DNA from: Cytophagaceae bacterium
Lineage (GTDB): Bacteria > Bacteroidota > Bacteroidia > Cytophagales > Flexibacteraceae
Reading direction: 5' to 3'
Assembly (NCBI GenBank): GCA_947458545.1
Contig: CANGYH010000001.1
Location: forward strand, 1,116,001 to 1,180,000
Length of the DNA stretch: 64,000 bases
The notes under the pieces are model-generated. The model saw only the letters and a list, made by a program, of their open reading frames with translations. It was not told the DNA's origin and made no database searches. This document shows positions 1,660 through 15,192 of the stretch, piece by piece; the stretch's first letter is position 1, and each line of letters starts with the position of its first letter. A program made the position numbers and the translations under genes.

Positions 1660-2760
1660 ATGCATGCTCCGCAAAACCGCCTGCACGTCGTCCACGTGGT
1701 CGAGTCGTTCGGCGGGGGGGTGATAGGGTTTGTTGAGCAACTGTGCCGATACCTTCCGCAGCTAAGGCATACGGTTGTCCATGCTGTACGTGCAGGCGAG
1801 GTGGCCCCGCACATTACCCAGGCGCGCTTTCCGGCCGAGACGGAGTTCGTACTCTGGCCCCATGCCGTACGCGAGATTGCCCCGCTGGCAGACACGCGTG
1901 CGCTTGCAGCGCTGGTACCGATCTTACGCAGGTTGCAGCCAGACGTGGTGCATCTGCACTCTTCTAAAGCAGGCTTTTTGGGCAGAATCGCAGCCAGGCT
2001 CATTGGCCACCGGGCTGTAATCTATACGCCTGGAGGAGCGGCCCTGCTCAGGCAAGACATCTCGCAGTGGAAGAGGGGTGTTTATGGCAGGCTTGAGTCT
2101 CTGGCAGCCCGCTTTGGGGGCCGGGTGGTAGCCTGCGGCAACGGAGAGGCACAGGCCCTGGCGGCCTACGGCGTAAAGGCAGATGTGATTGCCAATGGCA
2201 CAGAGCCAGGCCCTGAGCCTGCCCGGACACCTGCCATGGCAGGCAAGCTGCTTACTGTAATCACGACGGGGCGGTGCACACTGCAAAAAGACCCGGCTCG
2301 CTTCGGGCGCATTGCCAGGGCATTGGCAGGCGAGGCAAAATTTCGCTTTGTATGGGTAGGCACCGGCGAGCTTGCGGCCGACCTGCCACCCGAGGCCGTG
2401 CATGTTACCGGCTGGGTACCGGCAGACCAGGTGCGAGGGATGTTAGAGCAGGCAGATGTTTACCTCTCTACGGCCGTATGGGAAGGTTTGTCGCTTGCCG
2501 TGCTTGAGGCCATGGCAGCCGGGTTGCCTCTGTTGCTCTCAAATATCCCCGGCAATGCAGATGTGGTGCAGCCAGGCGTAAACGGTGCGCTCTTCGGCAC
2601 AGAGCAGGAGGCTATAGAGGCTTTACGCCAATGGGCAGACCAACCCGGCATGCTGGCCTCGATGGGCCAGGCCAGCAGAGCGCTCCTTTTGGCCGAGCAC
2701 GATGTACAACAGGTAGCGCAGCGCTACCTTAAGCTCTACCAGCATTTAACTGGCCATTAG
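1660..2760 (+). CDS. Family 4 glycosyltransferase
   Basis: A GT-B fold, retaining (GT4-type) glycosyltransferase of 366 residues, probably acting on envelope or capsule glycan. The N-terminal acceptor domain has the Gly-rich VVESFGGGVIGFVEQL and HLHSSKAGFLGR. The C-terminal donor domain has TGRCTLQKDP and the E-x7-E motif in AVWEGLSLAVLEAMAAG that contacts the sugar nucleotide. The frame opens at a TTG at 1630, but the ATG at 1660 places the first beta strand at the usual distance and is preferred. A CATCTTTG -7-like element lies at 1625-1632. The stop TAG overlaps the stop of the opposing DUF983 gene by four bases. The donor and acceptor cannot be told from sequence. Confidence 0.85.
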   Translation: MHAPQNRLHVVHVVESFGGGVIGFVEQLCRYLPQLRHTVVHAVRAGEVAPHITQARFPAETEFVLWPHAVREIAPLADTRALAALVPILRRLQPDVVHLHSSKAGFLGRIAARLIGHRAVIYTPGGAALLRQDISQWKRGVYGRLESLAARFGGRVVACGNGEAQALAAYGVKADVIANGTEPGPEPARTPAMAGKLLTVITTGRCTLQKDPARFGRIARALAGEAKFRFVWVGTGELAADLPPEAVHVTGWVPADQVRGMLEQADVYLSTAVWEGLSLAVLEAMAAGLPLLLSNIPGNADVVQPGVNGALFGTEQEAIEALRQWADQPGMLASMGQASRALLLAEHDVQQVAQRYLKLYQHLTGH

Positions 2761-3140
2761 GCCCCGTGGCGGCGCCCAGCCTCAGCTTCAGGGTCATAAT
2801 CGATGCCTGCAAACCAGTGCATCATCATTACGCGGCTATACCTGTAGTTAAGGGGCGCCAGCAGTAACGTTACAACAACCGTAGTAGAAATATAGACCCA
2901 GGTAGCAGGGTCTTGCCCTAGCACATAAACCGCCACAAAGCAGCCCACCATCGTAGCCACAGAAATAGCATAACCGGTGTACATGGCCCCTTGCCAAAGG
3001 CCGGGCTCACGCTCGAACCGGAGCCCGCAGTGGGGGCAATACGTATGCATCTGCCCGATAAAAGGGTAGGCGTCTAGCCCTTTAACGAACATATTGCCTC
3101 GGCGGCAGCGGGGGCACTTGGCAAGAAATAAGGCGCGCAT
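2757..3140 (-). CDS. DUF983 family membrane protein
   Basis: A small inner-membrane protein of 127 residues. Two CxxC pairs near the N terminus (CPRCRRG at about 9-15 and YCPHCGLRFE at about 34-43) suggest a zinc ribbon, followed by PGLWQGAMY and two hydrophobic helices. This arrangement is typical of DUF983, a family common in Bacteroidota and Proteobacteria whose function is unknown. The frame can be extended to a TTG at 3155, but the ATG at 3140 begins directly at the conserved MRALFLAKCPRC and is preferred. CAACTTTG, a -7-like element, lies 12 bases before that ATG. It is divergent from the periplasmic-binding-type gene. Confidence 0.8.
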   Translation of the reverse strand: MRALFLAKCPRCRRGNMFVKGLDAYPFIGQMHTYCPHCGLRFEREPGLWQGAMYTGYAISVATMVGCFVAVYVLGQDPATWVYISTTVVVTLLLAPLNYRYSRVMMMHWFAGIDYDPEAEAGRRHGA

Positions 3141-3294
3141 ATCTGGAGGACACAAAGTTGGCAGAATTTATACGATGGGCGCATAAAAAAGGCATGTAAA
3201 AGCTACGGACGCAAATTGATGCCCTAGGTACAGGCTCAGCACCAAGGTAAAGCTGGTGGTATCTTGGCAACCTAGGCATTTTAGGTTTACAGAT

Positions 3295-4461
3295 ATGATG
3301 CGGGTATTGCAGCAAGGCTTGGTGTTGGCGGTTGCATGGTTAGCTCTGCTAGCGCTGGGGCCTCATAGGGCCCAGGCAAATGTGCAGATCACTCATGGGG
3401 CAGCTCCCAAGGCGGGTGGAGATGAGATTCGTATTGCACTGGTGCTACCGCTGATGCTGCCTTCAGACCTTAAGGGCACCTTTAAGCCCTCCCAGACGAT
3501 GGCAGAGTTTTGCACGGCCGCCCGCCTGGCCGAGGCAGATGCCCAAGCCAGGGGTATTCCGATAAAGCTATACTTCTACGACTCTCGGCGCATGGCAGAC
3601 TCGGCCAGCCTGATAGCTAACTTGCCAGAGTTGGCAGAGATGGACCTTGTGATAGGACCCATTTACGGCAAAGAGACGGCCGCACTGGCCGCATGGGCCC
3701 AGGCAAGGCAGGTGCCCATGGTGAACCCGCTCACATCTGCGCTTCACTTTGATGCCAACAATAAGTTTGCCTACCAAGCAGAGCCTGGCCCTAAAGAAAT
3801 GGCCGCCACGGCCCTGGCCCTAAAGCAAGTAGGGCCAGGCAAGCAAGTAGGTTGCATTTACGGCACCACCCCCAAAGACAGTGCGCTGGCTGCCGCCTTT
3901 GCGGAGCAGGCCCGGCAGGCAGGCCATACGCTTGCTTTGTTTAAAAAGGTGGCAAAAAACTCGGCAGCCAACCTGCCCAAATTCTTGCGCGAGGCAGGGC
4001 TAGATAGCAACAGCGTACTCTTTGTGCCCAATGCCGAGCCGCTGGTGAAGGCGCAACTGCTGTCTGCGTTAGAGATTACCCGCTGCCCGGCACTAACGGT
4101 AACCTATGGTGCGTGGATTGAAGAATCAGACATTCCGCTAGAGCGGTTTGAGCGGTTACGCATTCGTTTCCTTTATCCAGATTATCCGGGCTATGGGCTG
4201 CCAGATGCCGAGCGGTTGCGCGCTCGCATCCAAGAGGTTTATGGGTTGCCTGCCACAGACGTTGGCCTTAAAGCCTACGATTTGATAGCCGTATTTGGCC
4301 AGGCACTGGCCCAGGCTGCACCGCAGGCCCGCAGCTCTGCCCTAAGAGACTATAGTCCACTGCCCAGCAAGCTAACGGCAGGCTACGACTTTACACAAAG
4401 CCAAACCAACGCGCGCGTACCTATTTACCGGCTGTATGATGGCCGGCTCGAGCGAGAGTAG
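3295..4461 (+). CDS. Periplasmic-binding-protein-like (type 1 fold) exported protein
   Basis: A 388-residue exported protein with a hydrophobic signal segment (residues about 5-25) ending near AQA. The mature part opens with IRIALVLPLMLPSDLKG, and DLVIGPIYGKETAALAAWAQ followed by VPMVNPLTS is the hallmark of the LivJ/Peripla_BP_6 fold, here of the LpoA-like or LysM-coupled Bacteroidota kind. No transporter permease or ATPase is next to it, so a role as ABC solute receptor is not supported; a sensor or peptidoglycan-synthesis helper is equally possible. Tandem ATGs at 3295 and 3298 are the natural starts; the longer frame would need a GTG and would push the signal peptide inside. A strong hairpin follows. 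Confidence 0.65.
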   Translation: MMRVLQQGLVLAVAWLALLALGPHRAQANVQITHGAAPKAGGDEIRIALVLPLMLPSDLKGTFKPSQTMAEFCTAARLAEADAQARGIPIKLYFYDSRRMADSASLIANLPELAEMDLVIGPIYGKETAALAAWAQARQVPMVNPLTSALHFDANNKFAYQAEPGPKEMAATALALKQVGPGKQVGCIYGTTPKDSALAAAFAEQARQAGHTLALFKKVAKNSAANLPKFLREAGLDSNSVLFVPNAEPLVKAQLLSALEITRCPALTVTYGAWIEESDIPLERFERLRIRFLYPDYPGYGLPDAERLRARIQEVYGLPATDVGLKAYDLIAVFGQALAQAAPQARSSALRDYSPLPSKLTAGYDFTQSQTNARVPIYRLYDGRLERE

Positions 4462-4480: not shown

Positions 4481-4513
4481 AAAAGCGGCCCACCTTTGCC
4501 AAGGTGGGCCGCT
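4481..4513 (-). terminator. Rho-independent terminator for the giant gene
   Basis: A perfect 13-bp inverted repeat, AGCGGCCCACCTT at 4484-4496 and its complement at 4501-4513, has a four-base loop. Read on the minus strand it ends in TTTT (4484-4481). It sits 31 bases past the stop of the giant secreted-protein gene and between the two convergent genes, so it may also hinder plus-strand transcription, though that side lacks a T run. Confidence 0.85.
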
Positions 4514-4543: not shown

Positions 4544-7500
4544 TTACCTACCCTCGTTGCGGAGGATCTCTACCCAGCCTTTGACTAGCCCGCCTTGGGG
4601 CGGTGTTAGCTCGTAGATGTAAACGCCAGAGGGAGCTTCGCCGCCGTCCCAGTCGTTGCGATATGGGCTGGCCTGGTACACCAGACGCCCCCAGCGATTA
4701 TAGACCCGTACACCCGTGCCAGGCACAAGGTTTTTGATGATCCAAGTGTCATTGATGCCGTCGCCGTTGGGCGAGAATACGTTGGTGGGATTGAAGCTGG
4801 AATCTCGGGCAACTTCTAGCGTACGGGTAACCTCGCAACCATTGCTGTCTCTGACGTATAGGTTGAGAGTACCCGGCTCGAGCCGCTCCAGGTACAGACC
4901 ACGCACAAAGGCTTGGTAGGTGCCAGGGTCTGAGGTACGAATTTCATAGGCCCCTACCCCACCGGTGATGCTGTCTATCTGAACCTCACCTTCGGCATAA
5001 TCGGGCGAGGTGGAATTCATCTGGCGGTAGGCTACCTCTATGCGAGGCGGCTGCGTCAGGATAACGGTGCGCGTGACGCTACTGCTGCAAGGGCCATATT
5101 GGCTTAGTTGCACATTGTAAGTACCAGCCTGCAGGCCGGGCACGGTTAGCTGCGAGCCGCGGAAGAAGCGGTCGCGCAGGCTGTCCACCTTTACAAGCTG
5201 GCCGGTGTTGGCATCAAAGACGGATACCTGCAGCGGCCCTGTGCCGCGGACGTCGTTGAGCACCAGCTTGCCCGATGCATCGCCGAAACAGCGGTTGTTC
5301 TCGACCGCCAGGCTATACGTAAGCGGTGTATTGCCAGGTAACTGGAAGGCAAAGCTGCCCGTGCAGCCGCCGCCATCGGTGGCGTCTAGCAGGCGGATTT
5401 GATGGAGCACACCCTCTGGCCTGGCGCTCAACCCGCTGATGCGCAATGTGTCACCCACCAGTGGTCTGAAAGCCGTGAAGGTGCCAGGGAGCGAGTCGTA
5501 AGCGAAGCGGTAACCAGGGTAGCCACCTGTGATGCGGAGAATGGCAACACCGTCGGCAGCATCACAATTGCTGGGAGTAAAGCGCACTACCTGGGCCCGC
5601 AGGGTGTCTAGCGTGGAGAGTGTCCGGGTGTAGCTAGACGTACAGGCAGGTATCGAGTTATCTATAACGGCGATGGTGTAAACGCCAGGCGTCAGGTTGC
5701 TGAACGTCGAGTCTGCCTGTGTGCGCCGGAATCCATCGGCCCGTTGCAGTTCAAAAGTATAAGGCCTCCGGCCACCTTCCAGGCCACGTAGCAAAATCTG
5801 CCCGTTGGTGCCGCCTGGGCAATTGCCCACAACGGTGATCTGCCGGGCCAGCGGCGCGTCTGATCCGATGCGGAAGGCCACGCTGCGGGTACAGCCTAGG
5901 CTGTCGGTTACCGTAAGGCGATAGTCTCCACCTACAAGGTTGCGCAGGGTGCTATCGTTTGGTATGCGGATGGTGTCTGGCCTAGTGGCGGCTGGCCGCA
6001 AGAGGGCATACACAAGCGAGCCAGACCCACCGCCGAACCGCGCCAGGCGTGCCATGCCAGTGGGCCCGGCACAGTCAGACCGTTGCAGGGCACCCATAGC
6101 CAGGCGTAGTGAGTCGGGCTGGCGGACGTTTATGGAGAGTGCCGCCACGCACCGGTTGCCATCGCGCACATAAACCACCCGGATACCAGCACCGAAGCTG
6201 GGGCTGATGGGCTGGCCCAGGGCCAGGGGCTGATAGCCCGTGTCTGGCCCAACGAGCGAGTAGGCAAAGCCACCAGAGCCGTTCTGCACCGAGTCTATGG
6301 TGATTTGCGCGTCTTGGCTGCCGTAGCAACTAACATTGCGCGATACCCGGGCAAATGCACGCAGAGGTGGTGCTGTATCGATACGAACAGCCGTGACGAA
6401 GGTGCAACGCGTCGAATCGTCGTGCACGGTTACCGTATAGTTGCCCGCGCGCAGGCCCGTAAATACATTATTGGCCGTGAGCGTATCAGCATTGCGGATT
6501 TTATAGCGGTAACGGCCAAAGCCGCCTGTTACGGTGCGTACTTCTATACGGCCGTTGGCCGTACCTGCGCAAGGCACAAGCCGGGTTACCACCACGGTGG
6601 CCGTCAGGTTGGTGCGGCTGCCAACGGCAATGTTGCGCAACGTATCGGCGCACAGCCTGTTGAGCGAATCGCGCACGACGAAGCCATAATTACCTACCGC
6701 AAGGCCAGTAAAGTTTGCCAGAGCGCCGTAAGCGCGCACGGTATCGTTCAACAGTAGGCCGTACTCGTAGCGACCGGTGCCGCCCGAAGCTTGAAGACGG
6801 ATCTGTCCGTTCGATTGGCCTGCGCAGTTGGCTGCCAACACCGTATCTACGGCCAGCCGCACCTGGCAAGGGCGGCAGCGTGGGTCGGCAGCAGGGCGGA
6901 ACCGCACCGCAAACGCCGACGATGTATCAGGCAAGCCCGTGATGCAGACCGCCGGGTTGGAAAGCCTAACAATAGCCTGGTATTGGTAAAGGCCTGCAGG
7001 CTCGGCCACGGCCAAGGTTAGGCTTGTAGCGTTGGCTATGGGTTGCCCATTGCGTAGCCATTGGACGCTAAAGCCCGCCTGGCCTGCAAGGTTGCTGGCG
7101 GCCCGCAGCAGTAGGGCCTGGCCCTGGCAGCTAACCGTATCAGAACCCGTAACGGTGGTATTGGCAACGATTATACTTTGTACGCTTATACGAGTAACGC
7201 TGCTGGTGTCCACACCAGGCACGATGCAGGTAGCACCCGATGGGGCAGTAAGCACGACGAAGACACTGTCGCCGTCAGATGGGCTGGGCAGGGTGTAGGT
7301 AGAGTCTGTACCGGCCTGCACCTGGGCACCGTTGCGATAGAAGGCATAGGTAGCCCCTGTGATACCAGCCAGGTTCCGGGCCTGCAGCGTTACGGGAGTG
7401 GCGGGGCAGGTAAGCACCTCGGGCGGCGACAGAGACACCGAAGCCGCAACCGTACCCGCCAAGACGCGTACCGGCACCGGGGCCGATGTCGCAGGTAAGC

Positions 7501-10500
7501 CTGCAAAGCAGGAAGAGGTATCTGTGGTTTGCACTACAACATCCACAATGTCTGCGTTGGCAAGGGTACTGATGGGCAGCGTATCTGCAGTAGCACCCGA
7601 AATGGCAGCACCGTTGATGCGCCACTGATAGGTAACACCAGGCAACGGCACATTTAGCGCCGAGCGGAAGGTGATAGGCTGGCCAGGGCAGAGTATAGGC
7701 GTGGCCGGCGTTGCGGCAACTACGATATTTTGCTGCGGTGCGCGCAGGGTAAAGGCCACAGAGTCTGCACAGGCAGCCGTGTCGGTAATGCGCAGTACAT
7801 ATGCACCGGCGCGCAGGCCACCGCGGAGGCTATCACCGAAAGAGGCAGGGCCATTTACCAGCACACCAGCGCGTAATAGCGTAAACCGGTAGGGCGCCGT
7901 ACCACCCGTTGCCGACACCAGGCGTATCTGGCCATCTGGCTGGGCGCAGCTAGGCTGCTGCTCTATGGCTACGGTGGCCACAAGCCTGGCGGGTTGTGCA
8001 AGCACAAGCGTCGTGTCGAAAGTGCAGCCTGTGCCAACGTCGGTTACGAAGATGGTCTGGTTGCCTGCAGCAAGGCCAGTATAGGTAGAGTCTAAGCGCA
8101 AGGCCTGGGCGGTGCCGCCGTTGATGCGAACGGTGTAGCTACCCGTGCCGTTGCGGACGGCATTTACCCTGAAGCCTCCCGTAGCTGTACCAAAGCAGGT
8201 TACCGGCTGCAACGTTAATGCAGGCCTGATGCTGTTGCGAGGTGCTATGGTTATGCGTTGAGCTACGGTGCGGCATGGGGTGCCATCTTCTACCACTAAT
8301 GGATAAATACCCGCAGCCAGATTGGCAAACGTAGTATCGCCAAAGGGGCTGGCAAGCTGAACGAACGTTGTGCCAGAATCCAGGCTGATGCGGTATGGTG
8401 CCACACCACCCGCTACACGAACGCGGACTGAGCCACCGGCAGTGCTGCCGCAGCTTCCGTTGTCCACCTGCGTAAGCAGGCTAAGGGTAACCTGCGTGCC
8501 GATGACCTGTGCGGCCGAGGTGCTACAAAGGGTGTCGCGCGCATCGCGAACGGTTATCACGTAGCTGCCGGCAGGCAAGCCATTGAACCGACGGAAAACA
8601 CTGTCTGACGAGAGCCAGGCACCGGCATTGTTGAGCCTGAACTGGTACTGGCCAGAGCCGCCTGTAGTTACCAGAGCCAACACTTGGCCATTGGTACCAC
8701 CGGCACAGGTTACAGGGTTAGAGGCCACGGCCAGACGGATGCCGCAGGCTGCTCCGCAATTGGCTGGGCGGCCTACCAGCACATCGGCAGAGTCTAGGCA
8801 GAGGGTGTTTTGAGATACTACCCTGTAGGCGCCAAAAAGCAGGTTTGCTACCGTTGCCGTGCTGCCGACAAACGTGCGCGTGCCGCCTTCTGTGCGGTAC
8901 CAGGCGTAGGTGGCACCGGGGCCAAAGTCTGCCGTAGCGGTACCGTCGGTGCTAAAGCACGTAGAATTTGGCGTGGTAACGGCAGCCACCCTCGGGGCGG
9001 GGCCAACGGAGAGTATTGCGATGCTAGAGTCTAAGCAACCACCTACGGCCTTAAAAACGACCGTATAGGTGCCTGCTACCGCCACAAGGCTATCGGTAGT
9101 GGCGAGGATAGTCTGAGCGGCATTTTTCCAAACGATAGAGTCTAGCACAGACGGGCTACTGATGCGAAGCACACCCGTAGGCAGGCCGCAGGCAGAGGCC
9201 GGGCGCACTTGCACGATCGTACGGCGCAGGGTGTCAGAAAGGGTAAACTGGGTCGTGTCTCTGCAGAAGCCCTCTGCGGCAATGGCGGCGTATGCGCGTG
9301 GCAACAGGCCGGTAATAGCAGCACCAGTAGCAATAGAATCGAGCGTCCCGCTGCCGTTATCGGCGTACCAGGTAATCTGCGGTGTAGCACCGGGCACGGT
9401 CGCTATGGCGCTGCCGTCTGCCAAGCCGCAATTGGCGGCAGATGTTTGTATGCTAAGTGCCAACAGGGCCGGGGCAGAAATTTGGGCATCGGCAGAGTCT
9501 GCACAAAGGCCGTTTTGCACCACTACGCGGTACCGGCCGGGGGCAAGGCCACGCAGGGTATCGCCGCCCGTCTGCACCAGATTACCTGTGGCATCCTTCC
9601 ATAGCAAGGTGGCTGCAGAGGCGGTATAGCGTGCAATGAGCCTTCCGTCTGTCGCTGTGCAATTGGTGGTGCCTACTGCCTCAAGGCTAACATTATAACG
9701 AATCGGCCCTACGCGGAATACTGCCGAGGTATCAGCGCAGCCGTTGGTGTCTGAAACAAAGGCACGGTACTGGCCAAAAGCAGTAACGTTAAGCACGTTT
9801 GCCGTACTACCCAACGGAGCGCCATCTAGCAACCAGCCCGAAACGGGCGTGGATGCCGTAAGTGTACCCGTATCGCCTGGGCAGAGAGTAGAATCGCCCG
9901 ATACCGTCGGCCTTGCGGGAGGCACGGAGTTGATGATTGTAATAGTATCAGAAGATGCGTTGCAGCCACCCGTAGTATCAATCACATGGTAAGCACCCAA
10001 TACCGAGGCACGCAGCGTATCGGTTGTAGCCCCTGCCAGTGCCGAGCCATTTAGATACCACTGGTTGCCGATTGCTGCACTGCTGCGCAACAATGTGGTG
10101 CCTATACCGCACAAAGAGCGGCGGCCCGATATGGTAGGGCGCGTGGGCGTAAACGGCGCTACAACAAGCCCGGCCAGGGTACGGCTGCAACCCGTAGTGG
10201 TCTGCGTAATGGCTACCTGATAAGTACCTGCAGCCAGAGACAATTGATCTTGCTGGCCTGCCACAAGCCCGATGCCGGTACCTGTCCAATCGAAGGTGTA
10301 AGGGCCCGCAGCGGCATCGAGCGTAAGGACGATTCTACCTGAAGTACCCGTGCAGCGGTTGGCAGCCTGCACATTGGCCGCAGCGGCAAATACGGCGGTG
10401 TCTTGCAGTTGCAGGTTTGCCAGAGCTGTGGCACAACCTGTGGCAGAATCTGTTACCACAACACCGTAAATACCCGAGCGCAGCGCCGTCTGGTTCTGGA

Positions 10501-13500
10501 CATTCTGCACGACGCCGCTGCCCGTCCAGGCAAAGCCATATCGGCCAGATCCTCCGGAGATTGTAAGCGCAATACCACCATCGGCAGCGCCGCAAATTGT
10601 GGACAAGGCCAGTGTGGCCGTTACGCTGGGGGCTGGTAATGCCGTTACTGCCAAGCCAGCCGATGCGGCACGGCAACCGTCAACATTGGTTACCAAAACC
10701 GTGTAGGTACCAGTTTGTGCAACCGAGAGTGAGTCTTGCACGGCACTTGCCAGCAGGGTATCGTTGCGGCTCCAGGCATACGTGGCAAACCCGGCAGTGG
10801 CCCGCAGCATAACCTGGCTACCCAGGCAGAAGGTATCTGGCCCATCCACCAGGGGCGGCAAAGGTTGAACCCCGGCTCGCAAAAGGAACGTGTCTGAGGC
10901 GGCGGCGCAGAAACCTGGGCGCGTGATTTCTATTTGGTACAGTCCGGGCTGGCTTGCCGCCAGGACGGGGCTGGCGGAGGTCAGCAGGGTGTCGTTCCGC
11001 AGCCACCGGATAAAGAAGGCCGGATCTGTTACGGAGCTGGTGAGCAGGACGGTGTCGCCCTGGCAAACAACGTTGGGGCCAGACAAGGTAGGCGTTGGAG
11101 GTATGGGGCCAGGCAAAACCTCGGCCGTGTCTGCCAGAGATGTACATCCCAAAGCGTCTGTGAGCGTTGCGGTGTAAATGCCGGGTAGGGATATCAGAAG
11201 GCTGTCTGCCGCAGCGCCGGCAATGGTGACGCCATTACGCTGCCAGGCAGGCAAGCCCGTGCCAGAGAGGCGCAGCACCAGCGTATCGGCAGCACAGATT
11301 TGCACAGGGCCCACCACAATGGGGGCCGCAGGTGCCGCCAAGGCGCGCACAAGCGCCGGTGCAGAAGTGTCTGCACAGCCAGCCGAGGTAAACACCACTA
11401 CGGCGTAAGTACCTGCCTGGGCAATGCCGCCAAGGGTTTGGGCGGTGTCATTAGGCAATACCACGCCTGCGCGCAGCCATTGGTAGCGTGCTGCAGGCCC
11501 GGTGGTGAGGGTTGCGGTGTTGCCGGGGCAGAAAGCCGTGTCGCCCGATACGACCGGAGCGGCAGGGGCAGACTCTTCTGTAACAATTATCTGATTACCC
11601 GCACTGCCACAGCCCGCTGCCGAGGTTGCCACCAGGCGGTAAATGCCCGCACGGTTTACCACCAAACTGGGGGCCGTTCCCTGGGGGGCAGGTAGTAAGG
11701 TATCATTTCTGAACCATTGCAGGCTCTCCGTAGCCGTAGTGCTAAGTGTAACCGTAGCGCCTGGGCATAGGCCCAGCGGGCCAGAGGCTGCAATAGAGGG
11801 TACGCTCGGGGCCGGATTGACCAGGCCACGGACCGTATCGCGAGCGAAGCAGCCGTTTAAGTTGGCAGAAAAGTCTAGGCGGTAGTTACCGCCGCCCGAT
11901 ACTTGCCGGGCCATGGGCAGGCCAATGCCATTGGTTAGGCCCGTTATACCGGCAGCCTCGCCTACACTGTATCGGACATCTGCCGCACGTGGCACAACGC
12001 TGCCAGCTATACGGAGGGTATCGCCAGCGCAGACTGGGCCAGGTGCTGTTATAGCTAACCTAGGTGCAGGGCGCACAAGCAGAACCGCAGTGGCAGAGTC
12101 TGTACCGCAGCCATTGCTTGCCCCTACACGGATGGTAATTTGCTGAATAACGCTATCTGCATTGGTGGGCGCAACGGCAATGCGATTGCCCGTACCATTG
12201 ACAAGGTTGCCCAACGAAGCGTCGCCAAACATCCGCCACCCCAGCGTAGCATCTGTGGCCGGATCAGCCGTCAGGTCTAGGAAAACAGAGTCTCCTGAAC
12301 AAAGGGAGCGGAAAGCCGGACTTACTGCTAGCTGTAAGCGAGGCGCTACCGAGACGGGGATGCTCAGCGTATCGCTGGTGCATGCGCCGGCCTGTGCCCA
12401 GGCACGGTAAATAATGGTCTCGCTGTTGCGGGTCAGGTTGCGCAGGGTGTCGTTTATGGCAGTACCAATGCCTGCGTTGGCACCTGTTAAAGCTGGATTT
12501 GCCACAGGGCGCCAGGCAATGTCTGCCCCGGCCGGCGTAGCAGACAAGGCAACTCCTACGGGTGTGCCACTACAAATGGAGGCAGATGCCGGAGTTGCGC
12601 CAAGGGTTGGCTTTATGTCTGTTTGGATATAGATCGTGTCGGCAGCACCTTGGCAGCCATCGAGTGTAGGCACGATGCTATAGCCCACTACACCTTGGCC
12701 AGAAAGCTGCCCTGTGAGTGCTGGGCCGCTTCCCGGGGCCTGGCCTGCGACGCTGCCCTGCGCCACAAAGGTTGTCCAGTTATAGGTTGCCCCCACGGGG
12801 CGGGCACGAAGCGGTACCGAAAAAATCGTGTTGGCGCAGACGCGAACAGTGTCTGAAAGGCCCAGCAAAGTAGGCCTTACGCCCACAGCAACGCGTACCA
12901 AGGCGGCAGGGCCCTGGCAGCCAGCCACGGTTGGCGTGATGGCATAAGCCACAACGGCCCGTACCGTATCTGTATTGGTTAGCTGCTGCGCGAGACGGCT
13001 ACCAGCGAAAGGAGCGAATCCGGTGGCAGAGCCTTCAACAAGCGTTGGCGCAAAAGCAAATTGGGTGCCTGCTACCGGTCCTGATACCTGAACCAGGGCG
13101 CTGTCTCCGCTGCAAAGGGTGGTATCTGCTGTAACCAACACAACCCTGGGGATGGGCTGCACAACTGCATAGACAGAAAACGTGTCGCCCAGGCAAGTAC
13201 CAGCCGATGGTTGTACCAGGTAGCGCACACGCCCTATCACATCGCCACTGTTGGTAAGGGCTACGCGGATGGTATCTCCGCTGCCGCTTGTGGCACCTCC
13301 GATGCCGGGCGAAACCGCCGCTGCTGTGTAGCTGAACGTAACCCCGGGCTGGACGCTGCGCAATACAATCTCGCCGCGCTGGCCAGAGCAGACCTCTAAA
13401 ACGGCAGGGGTAGCAGCTGCAGTAGGCCTGCCCGTTACAATGGCTACGCCTGCCTGGGGAGCACTGCTGCAACCGCTAAGGGAGGCCACACCTAAATAGG

Positions 13501-15037
13501 TAACGGTGCCATTGCCTGTAATTACCTGATCAATGAGCGGGCCGCTGCCATCGGCTTGGCCGTTGGCCGTCCCGGTAGCGGTGGCCGTCCAGGCAAAGGT
13601 GGCTCCGGCATCGGGGCTGGCGAGCACGAAGATGGCCGAGCCGCCCTCGCAGATCCGGAGGGTATCGGGCAGCATCACCAAGCGGGGCGTACGTTTTACG
13701 CGGGTGGTAGCACTTGCCGTATCTACACAGCCGTTGGTGTCTGCCACTGCGTAGCGGACCCGAACAGTGCCTATACCAGCCGAGTCTGGATAAAACAAGT
13801 TTGGCAAGCGTGTACCTGCCCCAAGCAAAGTGCCGCCAGCCGGCAAAAGATTAAGCGCAACCGCCGCAGAGCCTTGGCAATAAGCCGTGTCTAGCCCTGA
13901 GATACTGGCCGTCGGCAAGCTGAAGACCTGGGTGGTCTGAGATATTGAATCTTGACAACCCAGGGCAGTGGTAAACACATACCAGATGGTATGGGTGCCG
14001 ATACCAGAGGTGGCAGGGTCAAACACGTTGCCGCTTACACCTGGCCCTTTAAAAACACCCCCTAGCGGGCTTGGCACCAGGGTTGTGGCACTGGCATTGA
14101 TACAATATTTTGGCGAAAGACCCGTAAAGCTCAGGGCAGGCGCAGACTGCACCGTAACCGTGGCCGAGCGAATGGACTGGCAGGCAGAGCCACCGCCTGA
14201 TGTAGGCTCGGTAACTCTGAGCAGTACCGGGCGCAAGGGCCCGTTAGACGATGCCGTAAACAGGATTTGGTGTGGCCCAGGGCCAGTAATGGTGGGCAAG
14301 CCATTGGCTGTAAAAGTGCCCGCACCATTTACGATTATCCAAGAAAAAACTGCATCTGCAGAAGCTGTGCCCGTAAAACTTACATCAACCATCTGGCCCA
14401 AGCAGATGGCTGGCTGGCTAAAAGCCAGGTTTGCCACAGGCACCGGATTAACAAGAACCCGTAGCGAATCGGTAGCCGAGCAGCCGGCAGGCGTAGTAAC
14501 GGTGAGCGCAATCGGGGTGGTTGTATTCTCTACCAATGCGCCAGGGCCACTGCCAGGGATGGTAACCGTACTGCCCGACAATGTGCGTGCGCTGCCTGCC
14601 CCATCAGTATAGCTCCAGACGAAGGTGCCCGCTGCAGAGGCAGATCCGGTAAGACGTATGGCCTGCCCCACGCAAGCCCGTAAATCTGCGCCGGCAGAAA
14701 CCAACAAGGCAGGTGGTGCCTGCAACGTAACCGATACAGTGGTATCTGTAAAAGTGGCCAGGCTAAGTATGAAAACCGTGTATAGGCCCGGCTGCAGCCC
14801 ACTTTGCCTGTAAAGGCCTTGCGTAAGGCCTTGCTGGGCATTACCCCCGCTCCATCCAAAAAGGTAGTTGGATGAATCTAGCGGGAGGGTAAATGCAATA
14901 GAGCCGTTGGTGTCTCCGGCGCAGGTGGGGTTAACTACCGTCGGAGAGATGGTGATGATTGGCTGGGCCAGGGCGGGAGCACCCAGGCAGGCCATCAATC
15001 CCAGAAAAACCAGAGCCTGACGTATAAATCGCTGCAT
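4544..15037 (-). CDS. Giant repeat-rich secreted protein with type IX (type B) sorting domain
   Basis: A 3,497-residue surface or secreted protein. Residues 1-25 form a signal peptide ending PALAQ. Residue ranges below are estimated by eye. About 30-105 is one SprB-like repeat (C-GDTNGSI then YLFGWSGG and GLQPGLYTV). About 110-1060 is a series of PKD-like units of roughly 80-110 residues, each with a Cys-Ser/Ala-Gly or CEGG start and a late Gly-Cys. About 1070-1470 is Ig-like, with repeated W-x-R/L-x-G and GTY/GIY. About 1470-1620, 2094-2430 and 2719-3400 are SprB-like repeats, with CxGxxxGxI and LxAGxYxVxVxD. The last 85 residues are the CHU_C/gliding-motility type C-terminal domain: NVFSPNGDGINDTW, VYNRWGRLVY, WDGG, SGVYIYEL. 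T9SS recognises this domain, so the protein should cross the outer membrane and stay at, or leave, the surface. It is very rich in Thr, Ser, Ala, Gly and regularly spaced Cys, and poor in Lys. The role could be adhesion, gliding or matrix; no catalytic domain is visible. Confidence 0.9.
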   Translation of the reverse strand: MQRFIRQALVFLGLMACLGAPALAQPIITISPTVVNPTCAGDTNGSIAFTLPLDSSNYLFGWSGGNAQQGLTQGLYRQSGLQPGLYTVFILSLATFTDTTVSVTLQAPPALLVSAGADLRACVGQAIRLTGSASAAGTFVWSYTDGAGSARTLSGSTVTIPGSGPGALVENTTTPIALTVTTPAGCSATDSLRVLVNPVPVANLAFSQPAICLGQMVDVSFTGTASADAVFSWIIVNGAGTFTANGLPTITGPGPHQILFTASSNGPLRPVLLRVTEPTSGGGSACQSIRSATVTVQSAPALSFTGLSPKYCINASATTLVPSPLGGVFKGPGVSGNVFDPATSGIGTHTIWYVFTTALGCQDSISQTTQVFSLPTASISGLDTAYCQGSAAVALNLLPAGGTLLGAGTRLPNLFYPDSAGIGTVRVRYAVADTNGCVDTASATTRVKRTPRLVMLPDTLRICEGGSAIFVLASPDAGATFAWTATATGTANGQADGSGPLIDQVITGNGTVTYLGVASLSGCSSAPQAGVAIVTGRPTAAATPAVLEVCSGQRGEIVLRSVQPGVTFSYTAAAVSPGIGGATSGSGDTIRVALTNSGDVIGRVRYLVQPSAGTCLGDTFSVYAVVQPIPRVVLVTADTTLCSGDSALVQVSGPVAGTQFAFAPTLVEGSATGFAPFAGSRLAQQLTNTDTVRAVVAYAITPTVAGCQGPAALVRVAVGVRPTLLGLSDTVRVCANTIFSVPLRARPVGATYNWTTFVAQGSVAGQAPGSGPALTGQLSGQGVVGYSIVPTLDGCQGAADTIYIQTDIKPTLGATPASASICSGTPVGVALSATPAGADIAWRPVANPALTGANAGIGTAINDTLRNLTRNSETIIYRAWAQAGACTSDTLSIPVSVAPRLQLAVSPAFRSLCSGDSVFLDLTADPATDATLGWRMFGDASLGNLVNGTGNRIAVAPTNADSVIQQITIRVGASNGCGTDSATAVLLVRPAPRLAITAPGPVCAGDTLRIAGSVVPRAADVRYSVGEAAGITGLTNGIGLPMARQVSGGGNYRLDFSANLNGCFARDTVRGLVNPAPSVPSIAASGPLGLCPGATVTLSTTATESLQWFRNDTLLPAPQGTAPSLVVNRAGIYRLVATSAAGCGSAGNQIIVTEESAPAAPVVSGDTAFCPGNTATLTTGPAARYQWLRAGVVLPNDTAQTLGGIAQAGTYAVVVFTSAGCADTSAPALVRALAAPAAPIVVGPVQICAADTLVLRLSGTGLPAWQRNGVTIAGAAADSLLISLPGIYTATLTDALGCTSLADTAEVLPGPIPPTPTLSGPNVVCQGDTVLLTSSVTDPAFFIRWLRNDTLLTSASPVLAASQPGLYQIEITRPGFCAAASDTFLLRAGVQPLPPLVDGPDTFCLGSQVMLRATAGFATYAWSRNDTLLASAVQDSLSVAQTGTYTVLVTNVDGCRAASAGLAVTALPAPSVTATLALSTICGAADGGIALTISGGSGRYGFAWTGSGVVQNVQNQTALRSGIYGVVVTDSATGCATALANLQLQDTAVFAAAANVQAANRCTGTSGRIVLTLDAAAGPYTFDWTGTGIGLVAGQQDQLSLAAGTYQVAITQTTTGCSRTLAGLVVAPFTPTRPTISGRRSLCGIGTTLLRSSAAIGNQWYLNGSALAGATTDTLRASVLGAYHVIDTTGGCNASSDTITIINSVPPARPTVSGDSTLCPGDTGTLTASTPVSGWLLDGAPLGSTANVLNVTAFGQYRAFVSDTNGCADTSAVFRVGPIRYNVSLEAVGTTNCTATDGRLIARYTASAATLLWKDATGNLVQTGGDTLRGLAPGRYRVVVQNGLCADSADAQISAPALLALSIQTSAANCGLADGSAIATVPGATPQITWYADNGSGTLDSIATGAAITGLLPRAYAAIAAEGFCRDTTQFTLSDTLRRTIVQVRPASACGLPTGVLRISSPSVLDSIVWKNAAQTILATTDSLVAVAGTYTVVFKAVGGCLDSSIAILSVGPAPRVAAVTTPNSTCFSTDGTATADFGPGATYAWYRTEGGTRTFVGSTATVANLLFGAYRVVSQNTLCLDSADVLVGRPANCGAACGIRLAVASNPVTCAGGTNGQVLALVTTGGSGQYQFRLNNAGAWLSSDSVFRRFNGLPAGSYVITVRDARDTLCSTSAAQVIGTQVTLSLLTQVDNGSCGSTAGGSVRVRVAGGVAPYRISLDSGTTFVQLASPFGDTTFANLAAGIYPLVVEDGTPCRTVAQRITIAPRNSIRPALTLQPVTCFGTATGGFRVNAVRNGTGSYTVRINGGTAQALRLDSTYTGLAAGNQTIFVTDVGTGCTFDTTLVLAQPARLVATVAIEQQPSCAQPDGQIRLVSATGGTAPYRFTLLRAGVLVNGPASFGDSLRGGLRAGAYVLRITDTAACADSVAFTLRAPQQNIVVAATPATPILCPGQPITFRSALNVPLPGVTYQWRINGAAISGATADTLPISTLANADIVDVVVQTTDTSSCFAGLPATSAPVPVRVLAGTVAASVSLSPPEVLTCPATPVTLQARNLAGITGATYAFYRNGAQVQAGTDSTYTLPSPSDGDSVFVVLTAPSGATCIVPGVDTSSVTRISVQSIIVANTTVTGSDTVSCQGQALLLRAASNLAGQAGFSVQWLRNGQPIANATSLTLAVAEPAGLYQYQAIVRLSNPAVCITGLPDTSSAFAVRFRPAADPRCRPCQVRLAVDTVLAANCAGQSNGQIRLQASGGTGRYEYGLLLNDTVRAYGALANFTGLAVGNYGFVVRDSLNRLCADTLRNIAVGSRTNLTATVVVTRLVPCAGTANGRIEVRTVTGGFGRYRYKIRNADTLTANNVFTGLRAGNYTVTVHDDSTRCTFVTAVRIDTAPPLRAFARVSRNVSCYGSQDAQITIDSVQNGSGGFAYSLVGPDTGYQPLALGQPISPSFGAGIRVVYVRDGNRCVAALSINVRQPDSLRLAMGALQRSDCAGPTGMARLARFGGGSGSLVYALLRPAATRPDTIRIPNDSTLRNLVGGDYRLTVTDSLGCTRSVAFRIGSDAPLARQITVVGNCPGGTNGQILLRGLEGGRRPYTFELQRADGFRRTQADSTFSNLTPGVYTIAVIDNSIPACTSSYTRTLSTLDTLRAQVVRFTPSNCDAADGVAILRITGGYPGYRFAYDSLPGTFTAFRPLVGDTLRISGLSARPEGVLHQIRLLDATDGGGCTGSFAFQLPGNTPLTYSLAVENNRCFGDASGKLVLNDVRGTGPLQVSVFDANTGQLVKVDSLRDRFFRGSQLTVPGLQAGTYNVQLSQYGPCSSSVTRTVILTQPPRIEVAYRQMNSTSPDYAEGEVQIDSITGGVGAYEIRTSDPGTYQAFVRGLYLERLEPGTLNLYVRDSNGCEVTRTLEVARDSSFNPTNVFSPNGDGINDTWIIKNLVPGTGVRVYNRWGRLVYQASPYRNDWDGGEAPSGVYIYELTPPQGGLVKGWVEILRNEGR

Positions 15038-15161: not shown

Positions 15162-15192
15162 CAAAAGTATCGGCCCGCCAAAGCGGGCCGAT
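15162..15192 (-). terminator. Hairpin after the tryptophan dioxygenase gene
   Basis: Stem ATCGGCCCGC (15169-15178) pairs with GCGGGCCGAT (15183-15192) around a four-base loop. On the minus strand the stem is followed by ACTTTTG, giving a short T run. It lies between the dioxygenase stop and the giant gene start and should end kynA transcription. The same bases read TACTTTTG on the minus strand, a -7-type element that could serve the giant gene, but I see no -33 TTG at the right distance. Confidence 0.7.

Follow-up and report, generated by a model that had tools for sequence, protein, structure and literature searches.

A giant type B cargo gene of the type IX secretion system in a Cytophagaceae bacterium, with a tryptophan tail frequent in its family among cargos lacking an adjacent carrier gene

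The window analysed here, 64,000 nucleotides of a Cytophagaceae genome (GenBank GCA_947458545.1, contig CANGYH010000001.1, positions 1,116,001 to 1,180,000), carries a real, intact giant fibre gene of a known kind, a type B cargo gene of the type IX secretion system (T9SS). What is new about it is the plan of the modules, the fixed ends, the relation to GhpA and the class of the tail. The gene, its domains, the machinery genes of the genome, the cysteine rhythm and the tail statistics argue for a single-chain surface fibre that would be exported by T9SS on a shared, unpaired carrier and would serve in holding surfaces or cells, a reading that we regard as probable. The fibre is a well-mapped addition to the small set of giant T9SS fibres (SprB, GhpA). 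Its gene family shows how giant fibre genes vary, with a fixed tip and base and a free shaft, and its tail bears on how type B cargos without a neighbouring carrier gene find a carrier.

The cargo gene and its surroundings

The gene is a single stop-free frame of 3,497 codons, with its start ATG at 15037 and its stop codon at 4544-4546. The uninterrupted 10.5-kb frame claimed in an earlier note on this DNA is therefore correct, and the strand (minus) can be added. When the ORF's own codons were shuffled position-wise (n = 200), the shuffled versions held 51 stops on average and never fewer than 32, which argues that the frame is not a product of chance. The first 25 residues, followed by Q, look by eye like a signal peptide (MQRFIRQALVFLGLMACLGAPALA). 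The features of the gene and its flanks are given below from the N-terminal to the C-terminal end of the protein.

15169-15192, minus strand: terminator-like hairpin 3' of the upstream gene (hairpin scan)
14963-15037, minus strand: signal-peptide-like start, residues 1-25 (by eye)
14744-14923, minus strand: first module, SprB-like with a lone Cys, residues about 39-98 (SprB 18 bits, below cut-off)
13727-14674, minus strand: PKD/Ig-like modules, residues 122-437 (profiles, Cys spacing)
11849-13651, minus strand: PKD_5 block of seven Cys-bounded modules, residues 463-1063 (Pfam, profiles)
10673-11767, minus strand: Ig_7 block of five modules, residues 1091-1455, within the best GhpA match (Pfam, model)
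8798-10594, minus strand: eight Ig/SprB-like modules, residues 1482-2080 (profiles; Pfam weak or silent)
8744-8758, minus strand: C-x3-C linker preceding the first SprB block, residues 2094-2098 (Cys positions)
7769-8707, minus strand: SprB block 1, four modules, residues 2111-2423 (Pfam, profiles)
6944-7690, minus strand: Ig-like trio with Ig_2 match, residues 2450-2698 (Pfam, Cys spacing)
6866-6877, minus strand: C-x2-C linker preceding the second SprB block, residues 2721-2724 (Cys positions)
5087-6826, minus strand: SprB block 2, seven modules, residues 2738-3317, in the same order as modules 37-43 of relative G001 (Pfam, module comparison)
4835-5020, minus strand: last module, SprB-like with the closing Cys only, residues about 3340-3401 (SprB below cut-off)
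4562-4786, minus strand: type B sorting domain, CHU_C / TIGR04131, residues 3418-3492 (Pfam, NCBIfam)
4559-4579, minus strand: GWVEILR tail with the W-tail mark, residues 3487-3493 (tail reading)
4544-15037, minus strand: whole giant T9SS type B cargo gene, 3,497 aa (ORF, Pfam, NCBIfam)
4484-4513, minus strand: terminator-like hairpin 3' of the cargo gene, 13 pairs (hairpin scan)

The hairpin scan gave 13 hairpins in total, which is the shuffle level (13.1), and the two flanking the cargo gene have the most pairs. Since they follow the cargo gene and the upstream gene, respectively, the cargo gene is probably transcribed alone. Its neighbours are an ORF with a Peripla_BP_6 match and an ORF with a Trp_dioxygenase match. 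The latter, labelled kynA earlier, is an ORF of 331 aa, and its match is partial.

The cargo protein is nearly free of lysine, with 12 Lys against 203 Arg in 3,497 residues; Lys makes up 2.3-5.7% of eleven other proteins of the window. Four further giant open frames elsewhere in the genome were compared, three with 0.7% Lys and one with 1.4%. Opposite the cargo gene, plus-strand frames of 150-214 aa are open at 6305-6757, 9162-9629 and 13968-14612, which the G+C content of the cargo gene at codon position 2 (58%) may explain.

Module layout and cysteine framework

Pfam search with the whole protein matched SprB (143 bits, 10 stretches), PKD_5 (99 bits, four stretches), Ig_7 (89 bits, four stretches) and, at residues 3418-3490, CHU_C (PF13585, 67.2 bits, cut-off 27); Ig_2 was over its Pfam cut-off too. 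The NCBIfam type B sorting domain TIGR04131 scored 42.8 bits (cut-off 35). When the protein was searched in 350-residue slices, SprB (cut-off 28 bits) reached its cut-off at 2101-2450 (81 bits), 2451-2800 (28.1) and 2801-3150 (61) and stayed below it at 1-350 (18), 1401-1750 (25) and 3151-3497 (16). PKD_5 was matched in slices 351-700 and 701-1050, Ig_7 over its cut-off in 351-700, 1051-1400 and 1401-1750, Ig_2 in 2451-2800 and CHU_C in the terminal slice; slice 1751-2100 matched no Pfam family at 0.01. A profile started from a single Ig_7 module and iterated on the protein found 41 places over residues 38-3398 (36 with E < 1e-3), with cysteines at the same two positions. The PKD_5-seeded profile remained confined to the 462-1069 block plus weak matches, and the SprB-seeded one covered both SprB blocks and several other modules. 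These profiles are self-trained and drift by design, and their E-values show that the kinds intergrade, not how far. Judged from the sequence, the chain is a row of about 40 modules of one cysteine-bounded plan, arranged in contiguous blocks. The earlier note had described SprB-like, PKD-like and Ig-like repeats, and the Pfam profiles bear out all three. It had them alternate along the chain, with SprB at the N end, in the middle and near the C end: the families and the SprB stretches are present, but the repeats stand in contiguous blocks on one shared cysteine framework, and the stretches at the N end, 1401-1750 and 3151-3497 are below the cut-off.

The protein has 83 cysteines. One lies in the signal-like start, 38 pairs bound modules at a distance of 48-74 residues, and the remainder are in the C-x3-C and C-x2-C linkers directly before the SprB blocks and at the single positions 39 and 3401. 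Linkers between modules are mostly 25-28 residues long. Successive cysteine gaps alternate in 71 of 81 pairs, where 5,000 random placements gave 4.4 on average and 19 at most, and the relatives read have the same rhythm. Most likely each cysteine-bounded module would hold one disulfide. Relatives G001, G002 and G004 (described below) also have Cys linkers ahead of SprB-like blocks and the last-module Cys, G004 with a further Cys eight residues past it. The lone cysteines at residue 39 in the first module (about 14923) and residue 3401 in the last (about 4835) are found in the orthologues read as well, and a link to another chain or to a partner is possible.

Repeats within the protein are diverged, as claimed earlier: identity peaks at 44% among the 703 module pairs. 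With no module pair above 60% identity, a recent repeat expansion in the cargo gene was rejected. The earlier note's absence of recent expansion thus holds for this gene but not for the family, in which relatives do expand: pairs more than 60% identical number 161 in G010 (some at 100%), six in G008, one in G001 (88%) and none in G004.

Orthologues and the history of the shaft

The last 1,468 residues of the cargo protein were searched against 11 genomes of the family. G001, G002 and G004 gave co-linear matches over about 1,450 residues at 32-35% identity, and G010 and G008 matched less. The last seven cysteine-clamped modules of the cargo align in order with modules 37-43 of G001 and 25-31 of G002, and less cleanly with G004. 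At the other end, residues 122-186, which form the first clamped module, match their counterparts in G001 and G004, and in these two the N-terminal start and first module are alike by eye. The order of the middle modules is mostly not kept, and the frames open from stop to stop are 3,528 codons here, 3,919 in G001 and 4,441 in G004; the G002 copy is cut by a contig end. Because the end modules match in order while the intermediate modules and frame lengths differ, the tip module and base are conserved and the length of the shaft varies between species.

Synteny was considered as further support and rejected. By eye, the ORF ends next to the relatives in G001, G004, G008 and G010 belong to other genes, and the suggestion that related genomes keep the gene between kynA and the periplasmic-binding gene fails in the relatives read.

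The 5,159-codon relative in G010 (L096/L097, G010:C3:50001-78000) has a near-uniform 52/28 Cys spacing together with its 161 similar pairs, and its shaft appears to have been expanding recently. In the 4,441-codon orthologue of G004 (L095, G004:C12), a stretch of about ten modules is seemingly duplicated; the spacings repeat and the paired modules are 40-57% alike.

Secretion machinery and comparison with SprB

Profile search found SprA in the genome, and GldK (467 bits), GldL (249), GldM (424), GldN (134) and the short form of GldJ (582) over curated cut-offs; for GldJ, TIGR03524 is under its cut-off and the short form TIGR03530 well over. PorP/SprF-family matches number nine, eight of them over the cut-off, and type B domains 22, several of the cargos being giants. 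With both sorting-domain profiles over their cut-offs, the sequence marks the protein as a T9SS type B cargo, in agreement with the earlier note. That note had named a missing type B match or missing T9SS core genes as grounds against its reading; the match is there, and so are SprA, GldJ and GldK-N.

SprB of Flavobacterium johnsoniae is a gliding adhesin and a type B cargo; its carrier is SprF, and sprB and sprF are linked. Our cargo resembles it in SprB repeats, giant size, type B domain and a genome with T9SS and GldJ/K/L/M/N, a likeness of features and not letter by letter. It differs in that PKD_5 and Ig_7 modules form much of the shaft and in that no PorP/SprF-family gene lies near the cargo gene; by coordinates, none lies beside the orthologues in G001, G002 and G004 or the G010 relative either. 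An SprB-type gliding adhesin propelled along a GldJ/GldK/GldN track would account for the fact that seven of the eight SprB-family matches of the genome fall inside the cargo gene and for the presence of GldJ (short form) and GldK-N, and three F. johnsoniae type B cargos without a carrier of their own do go to the gliding machinery (PMC12618676). We nevertheless regard this role as rather unlikely, since the gene has no SprF-like neighbour, unlike sprB-sprF, and Pfam finds no SprB repeat over most of the chain.

Elsewhere in the genome, a 4,044-codon giant frame (L104:772-12903, G000:C6:172772-184903) matches SprB once and weakly, and no type B domain is listed for it.

Structure model and kinship with GhpA

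Two segments were modelled with AlphaFold. For residues 905-1312, aligned with 28 of 40 listed homologous rows from the named loci, the model is all beta with a mean pLDDT of 82.6 and a pTM of 0.53, the first 80 residues being less sure. For residues 2985-3497, aligned with all 17 homologous rows, the pLDDT of 66.2 is too weak for use; the best PDB rows of this model are mostly fibronectin-type chains (Z at most 10.2) and uninformative on the family. The long fibre proposed in the earlier note is supported, as a chain of beta modules, for the modelled part 905-1312; the C-terminal model is weak. Foldseek with the 905-1312 model placed eight GhpA fragments on top (E 1.3e-20 to 3.2e-16), and in VIA-align the GhpA rows had Z scores of 12.3-16.6 and rmsd values of 6.9-10.1 over 306-381 aligned residues. 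The row that follows comes from a complex with human CEACAM6; its Z of 12.0, reached over 229 residues, ties with the lowest GhpA row, and the fold rankings are compatible with families other than GhpA. A PHROGs search gave weak matches, mainly Hoc-like.

GhpA (grappling hook protein A; PDB 9flp and seven more entries) is a protein of Aureispira sp. CCB-QB1, reportedly described by Lien et al. in 2024. Among PDB sequences it is the sole match of the whole cargo protein at E 0.01 (431 bits, E 7.7e-128). The significant stretches are residues about 912-1527, against many places in GhpA, and 3406-3493, against its last 94 residues; the sorting domain by itself scores 43 bits (E 3.9e-10). Searched singly, residues 1-459 and 2080-3412 had no match among PDB sequences. 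As controls we used three other cargos of the same genome: a carrier-adjacent one of 2,322 codons matched GhpA at 252 bits and one of 3,788 codons weakly at 36 bits, and one of 3,794 codons had no GhpA match at E 0.001. As other cargos of the genome match GhpA too, the relation is a kinship of modules, strongest among the four proteins tested, and no proof of orthology.

Both proteins are giant single chains with cysteine-bounded Ig-like modules (our 912-1527) and homologous type B sorting domains. They differ in length (GhpA has 5,898 aa), in the tip and SprB blocks of the cargo, which match nothing in the PDB when searched singly, and in the tail, since GhpA ends in GFVEV, a Phe form, after the longer sorting-domain loop of carrier-adjacent domains. 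Placing GhpA in the tail class described below was rejected, because its GFVEV end follows that longer loop. The Phe form is in any case not a safe mark, as a carrier-adjacent cargo outside the family (L061) ends in GFVVIV.

GhpA spans a filament and forms heptamers (PMC13319060); hooks attach to prey flagella, and the killing is done by a T6SS (PMC11205867). A grappling-hook fibre of this kind, catching prey or other cells, would fit the shared Ig-like modules, the homologous sorting domain and the exclusive PDB match. It seems to us quite improbable for the cargo gene, considering that the matches are confined to two parts of the chain, that the N-terminal 459 residues and 2080-3412 match no PDB sequence when searched alone, that another cargo of the genome also matches GhpA, and that the GhpA sorting domain is of the carrier-adjacent type, with Phe for Trp. 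The genome also has no match to TssC, a T6SS sheath family. TssC (PF17541), which we assume to mark the Bacteroidota type of T6SS, was matched in one of the 11 family genomes (G006:C28:15763-17052).

A tryptophan tail in cargos without an adjacent carrier

The cargo protein ends in G-W-V-E-I, a tail unlike that of any carrier-adjacent cargo that we read. We scored a tail as a W-tail when W followed by a hydrophobic residue (h) occurs within the last 13 residues. This rule was fixed after all tails had been seen; its first form, drawn from this genome alone, was G-W-h-E-h. Of the 22 type B domains of this genome, seven are followed directly by a PorP/SprF-family gene (in one case a carrier that scores below its cut-off), one is at a contig end and 14 have no carrier. 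None of the seven carrier-adjacent domains has a W-tail, compared with 13 of the 14 non-adjacent ones (our cargo included), twelve of them G-W-h-E-h; L022 of this genome, which ends in GFVEV, was scored as lacking the W-tail. By eye, the segment leading from the W-D-G region to the G-x-Y strand is also shorter in most orphan domains of this genome.

The same contrast was seen in the ten other family genomes. Among the matches listed there, the W-tail is present in 0 of 48 cargos directly before a carrier and in 45 of 74 without one (Fisher 6e-14), or in 0 of 43 and 42 of 68 after identical tails were collapsed (1e-12), values that are not independent tests because the genomes are related. All six genera show this direction; five W-tail cargos lie too near contig ends for carrier adjacency to be judged. 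Type B matches in the 11 genomes number 198, of which 155 were examined (150 listed and five more from this genome). The 2 x 2 counts omit 12 of these: one cut by a contig end, nine near a contig end with no carrier, and two that have a carrier inside 5 kb, though not immediately downstream.

Across the order, 56 of 59 genomes, including five of the family, had a match to a profile of 11 W-tail domains; this figure counts profile matches, and the tail itself was checked in 29 loci. The W-tail was found at 24 of the 25 checked loci outside the family; 22 of these have no carrier in at least 1.4 kb downstream, one has only 260 bases of downstream sequence, and one (L286) has a carrier. Since the loci were picked for likeness to the W-tail profile, this check bears on whether a W-tail implies no carrier, not on the reverse. 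In named loci of other Bacteroidota (47 loci with 56 ORFs, many from Chitinophaga), W-tails were found in 0 of 26 carrier-adjacent and 1 of 29 non-adjacent cargos, and one further cargo at a contig edge has none; some of the 29 probably share an operon with another cargo and come second in it, and three (E 1e-4 to 6e-4) are probably not type B; all were kept in the count. The W-tail as a universal mark of orphan cargos was therefore rejected.

No name for the W-tail class was found in the literature within reach of our search, which took in few subscription papers and preprints, and the words tryptophan and Trp do not occur in the main text of PMC12618676. The tail statistics suggest, by analogy, a sub-class that would be served by a shared, unpaired carrier. 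We put forward, with more reserve than confidence, that an unnamed type B sub-class (a Trp in the last strand, mostly as G-W-h-E-h, a shorter preceding loop and no carrier of its own) is recognised by an unpaired carrier of the PorP/SprF family that its members share. Its mark would be a general sorting address, existing alongside those that pair one cargo with one carrier, and our fibre would bear it. The shared carrier is argued from analogy, and against it stand the 30 of 88 non-adjacent type B cargos of the family (among the matches listed) that have no W-tail, the 28 of 29 non-adjacent cargos of other Bacteroidota that lack it, and L286, whose W-tail cargo has a downstream carrier.

Candidate carriers and the proposed fibre

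The precedent comes from F. johnsoniae, in which three orphan type B cargos (Fjoh_1123, Fjoh_1720 and Fjoh_4934) share one orphan carrier, Fjoh_1677, and are directed to the gliding machinery (PMC12618676). Our cargo resembles the three in being a type B cargo without an adjacent carrier in a genome with unpaired carriers, a likeness of gene arrangement in which tails were not compared.

Carrier matches in the 11 genomes number 91, and all were used for adjacency. We scored 85 as carriers (83 over the cut-off and two nearly full-length below it) and excluded six weak partial ones. Listed type B cargos precede 55 of the 85; the other 30 do not follow one, and some of these may follow type B matches outside the list, as 43 of the 198 matches were not examined. 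In a tree of 52 sequences (the 30 unpaired carriers and 22 paired ones), two clades stand out. The first has members in 10 genomes (support 100/99), nine of them within 2 kb of GldL, that is, the PorP of the core operon. The second spans nine genomes (support 96/90) and includes C1:162661 of this genome, and its nine members all have a Pro-Cys-Pro tail; some paired carriers also have a tail of this type. Both PorP clades occur without a paired cargo in most of the 11 family genomes (9 and 10), and they are the strongest carrier candidates. Within this genome the unpaired carriers in question are C1:162661 and C5:44723, and the data favour neither. In F. johnsoniae, a Cys pair in the SprF tail is joined by disulfide bonding to GldK, a protein of the track (PMC12635249); it is our guess, by analogy, that the single tail Cys of the clade with C1:162661 might bond to GldK likewise.

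A static adhesin or cell-coat component for attachment, floc or biofilm, neither moved nor predatory, may well describe the product, although we lean slightly against it. Type B cargos can be anchored statically (PMC12618676, PMC9143113), and this genome has 22 type B cargos with several giants among them; yet the static cargos of F. johnsoniae are postulated, in the same two papers, to go with a PorP-like and a PorE-like protein of the same operon, and our cargo gene has no PorP-like neighbour.

Our preferred reading, the surface fibre on a shared carrier, covers both a static and a moving fibre. The protein would leave the cytoplasm by Sec export via its N-terminal signal and pass through the T9SS translocon SprA by means of its C-terminal type B domain. 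The C-terminal end would hold it to the cell surface, and the N-terminal module would form the distal tip. Between them would stand about 40 beta modules in a row, 38 with a Cys at each end and one disulfide each, and with such a bond in each module the chain would resist pulling and proteases. The base (two SprB blocks, Ig trio and sorting domain) and the tip would be the conserved parts and the shaft a spacer of varying length. Ig-like modules are 3.5-4.5 nm long, and an extended fibre of about 40 of them would measure 140-180 nm. It would be loaded on an unpaired PorP/SprF-family carrier common to the W-tail cargos of the genome, with C1:162661 and C5:44723 as candidates; given a cargo with a W-tail and no carrier gene of its own, a shared unpaired carrier is the most likely choice. 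The fibre would then hold on to surfaces or other cells, static or moved along a gliding track, and its function, be it adhesion, gliding or capture, is one that we infer.

At L101:12598-17669 (G000:C1:162598-167669), the unpaired carrier gene stands tail to tail with a 1,345-codon ORF, the C end of which is weakly type A-like (21.4 bits, cut-off 23).
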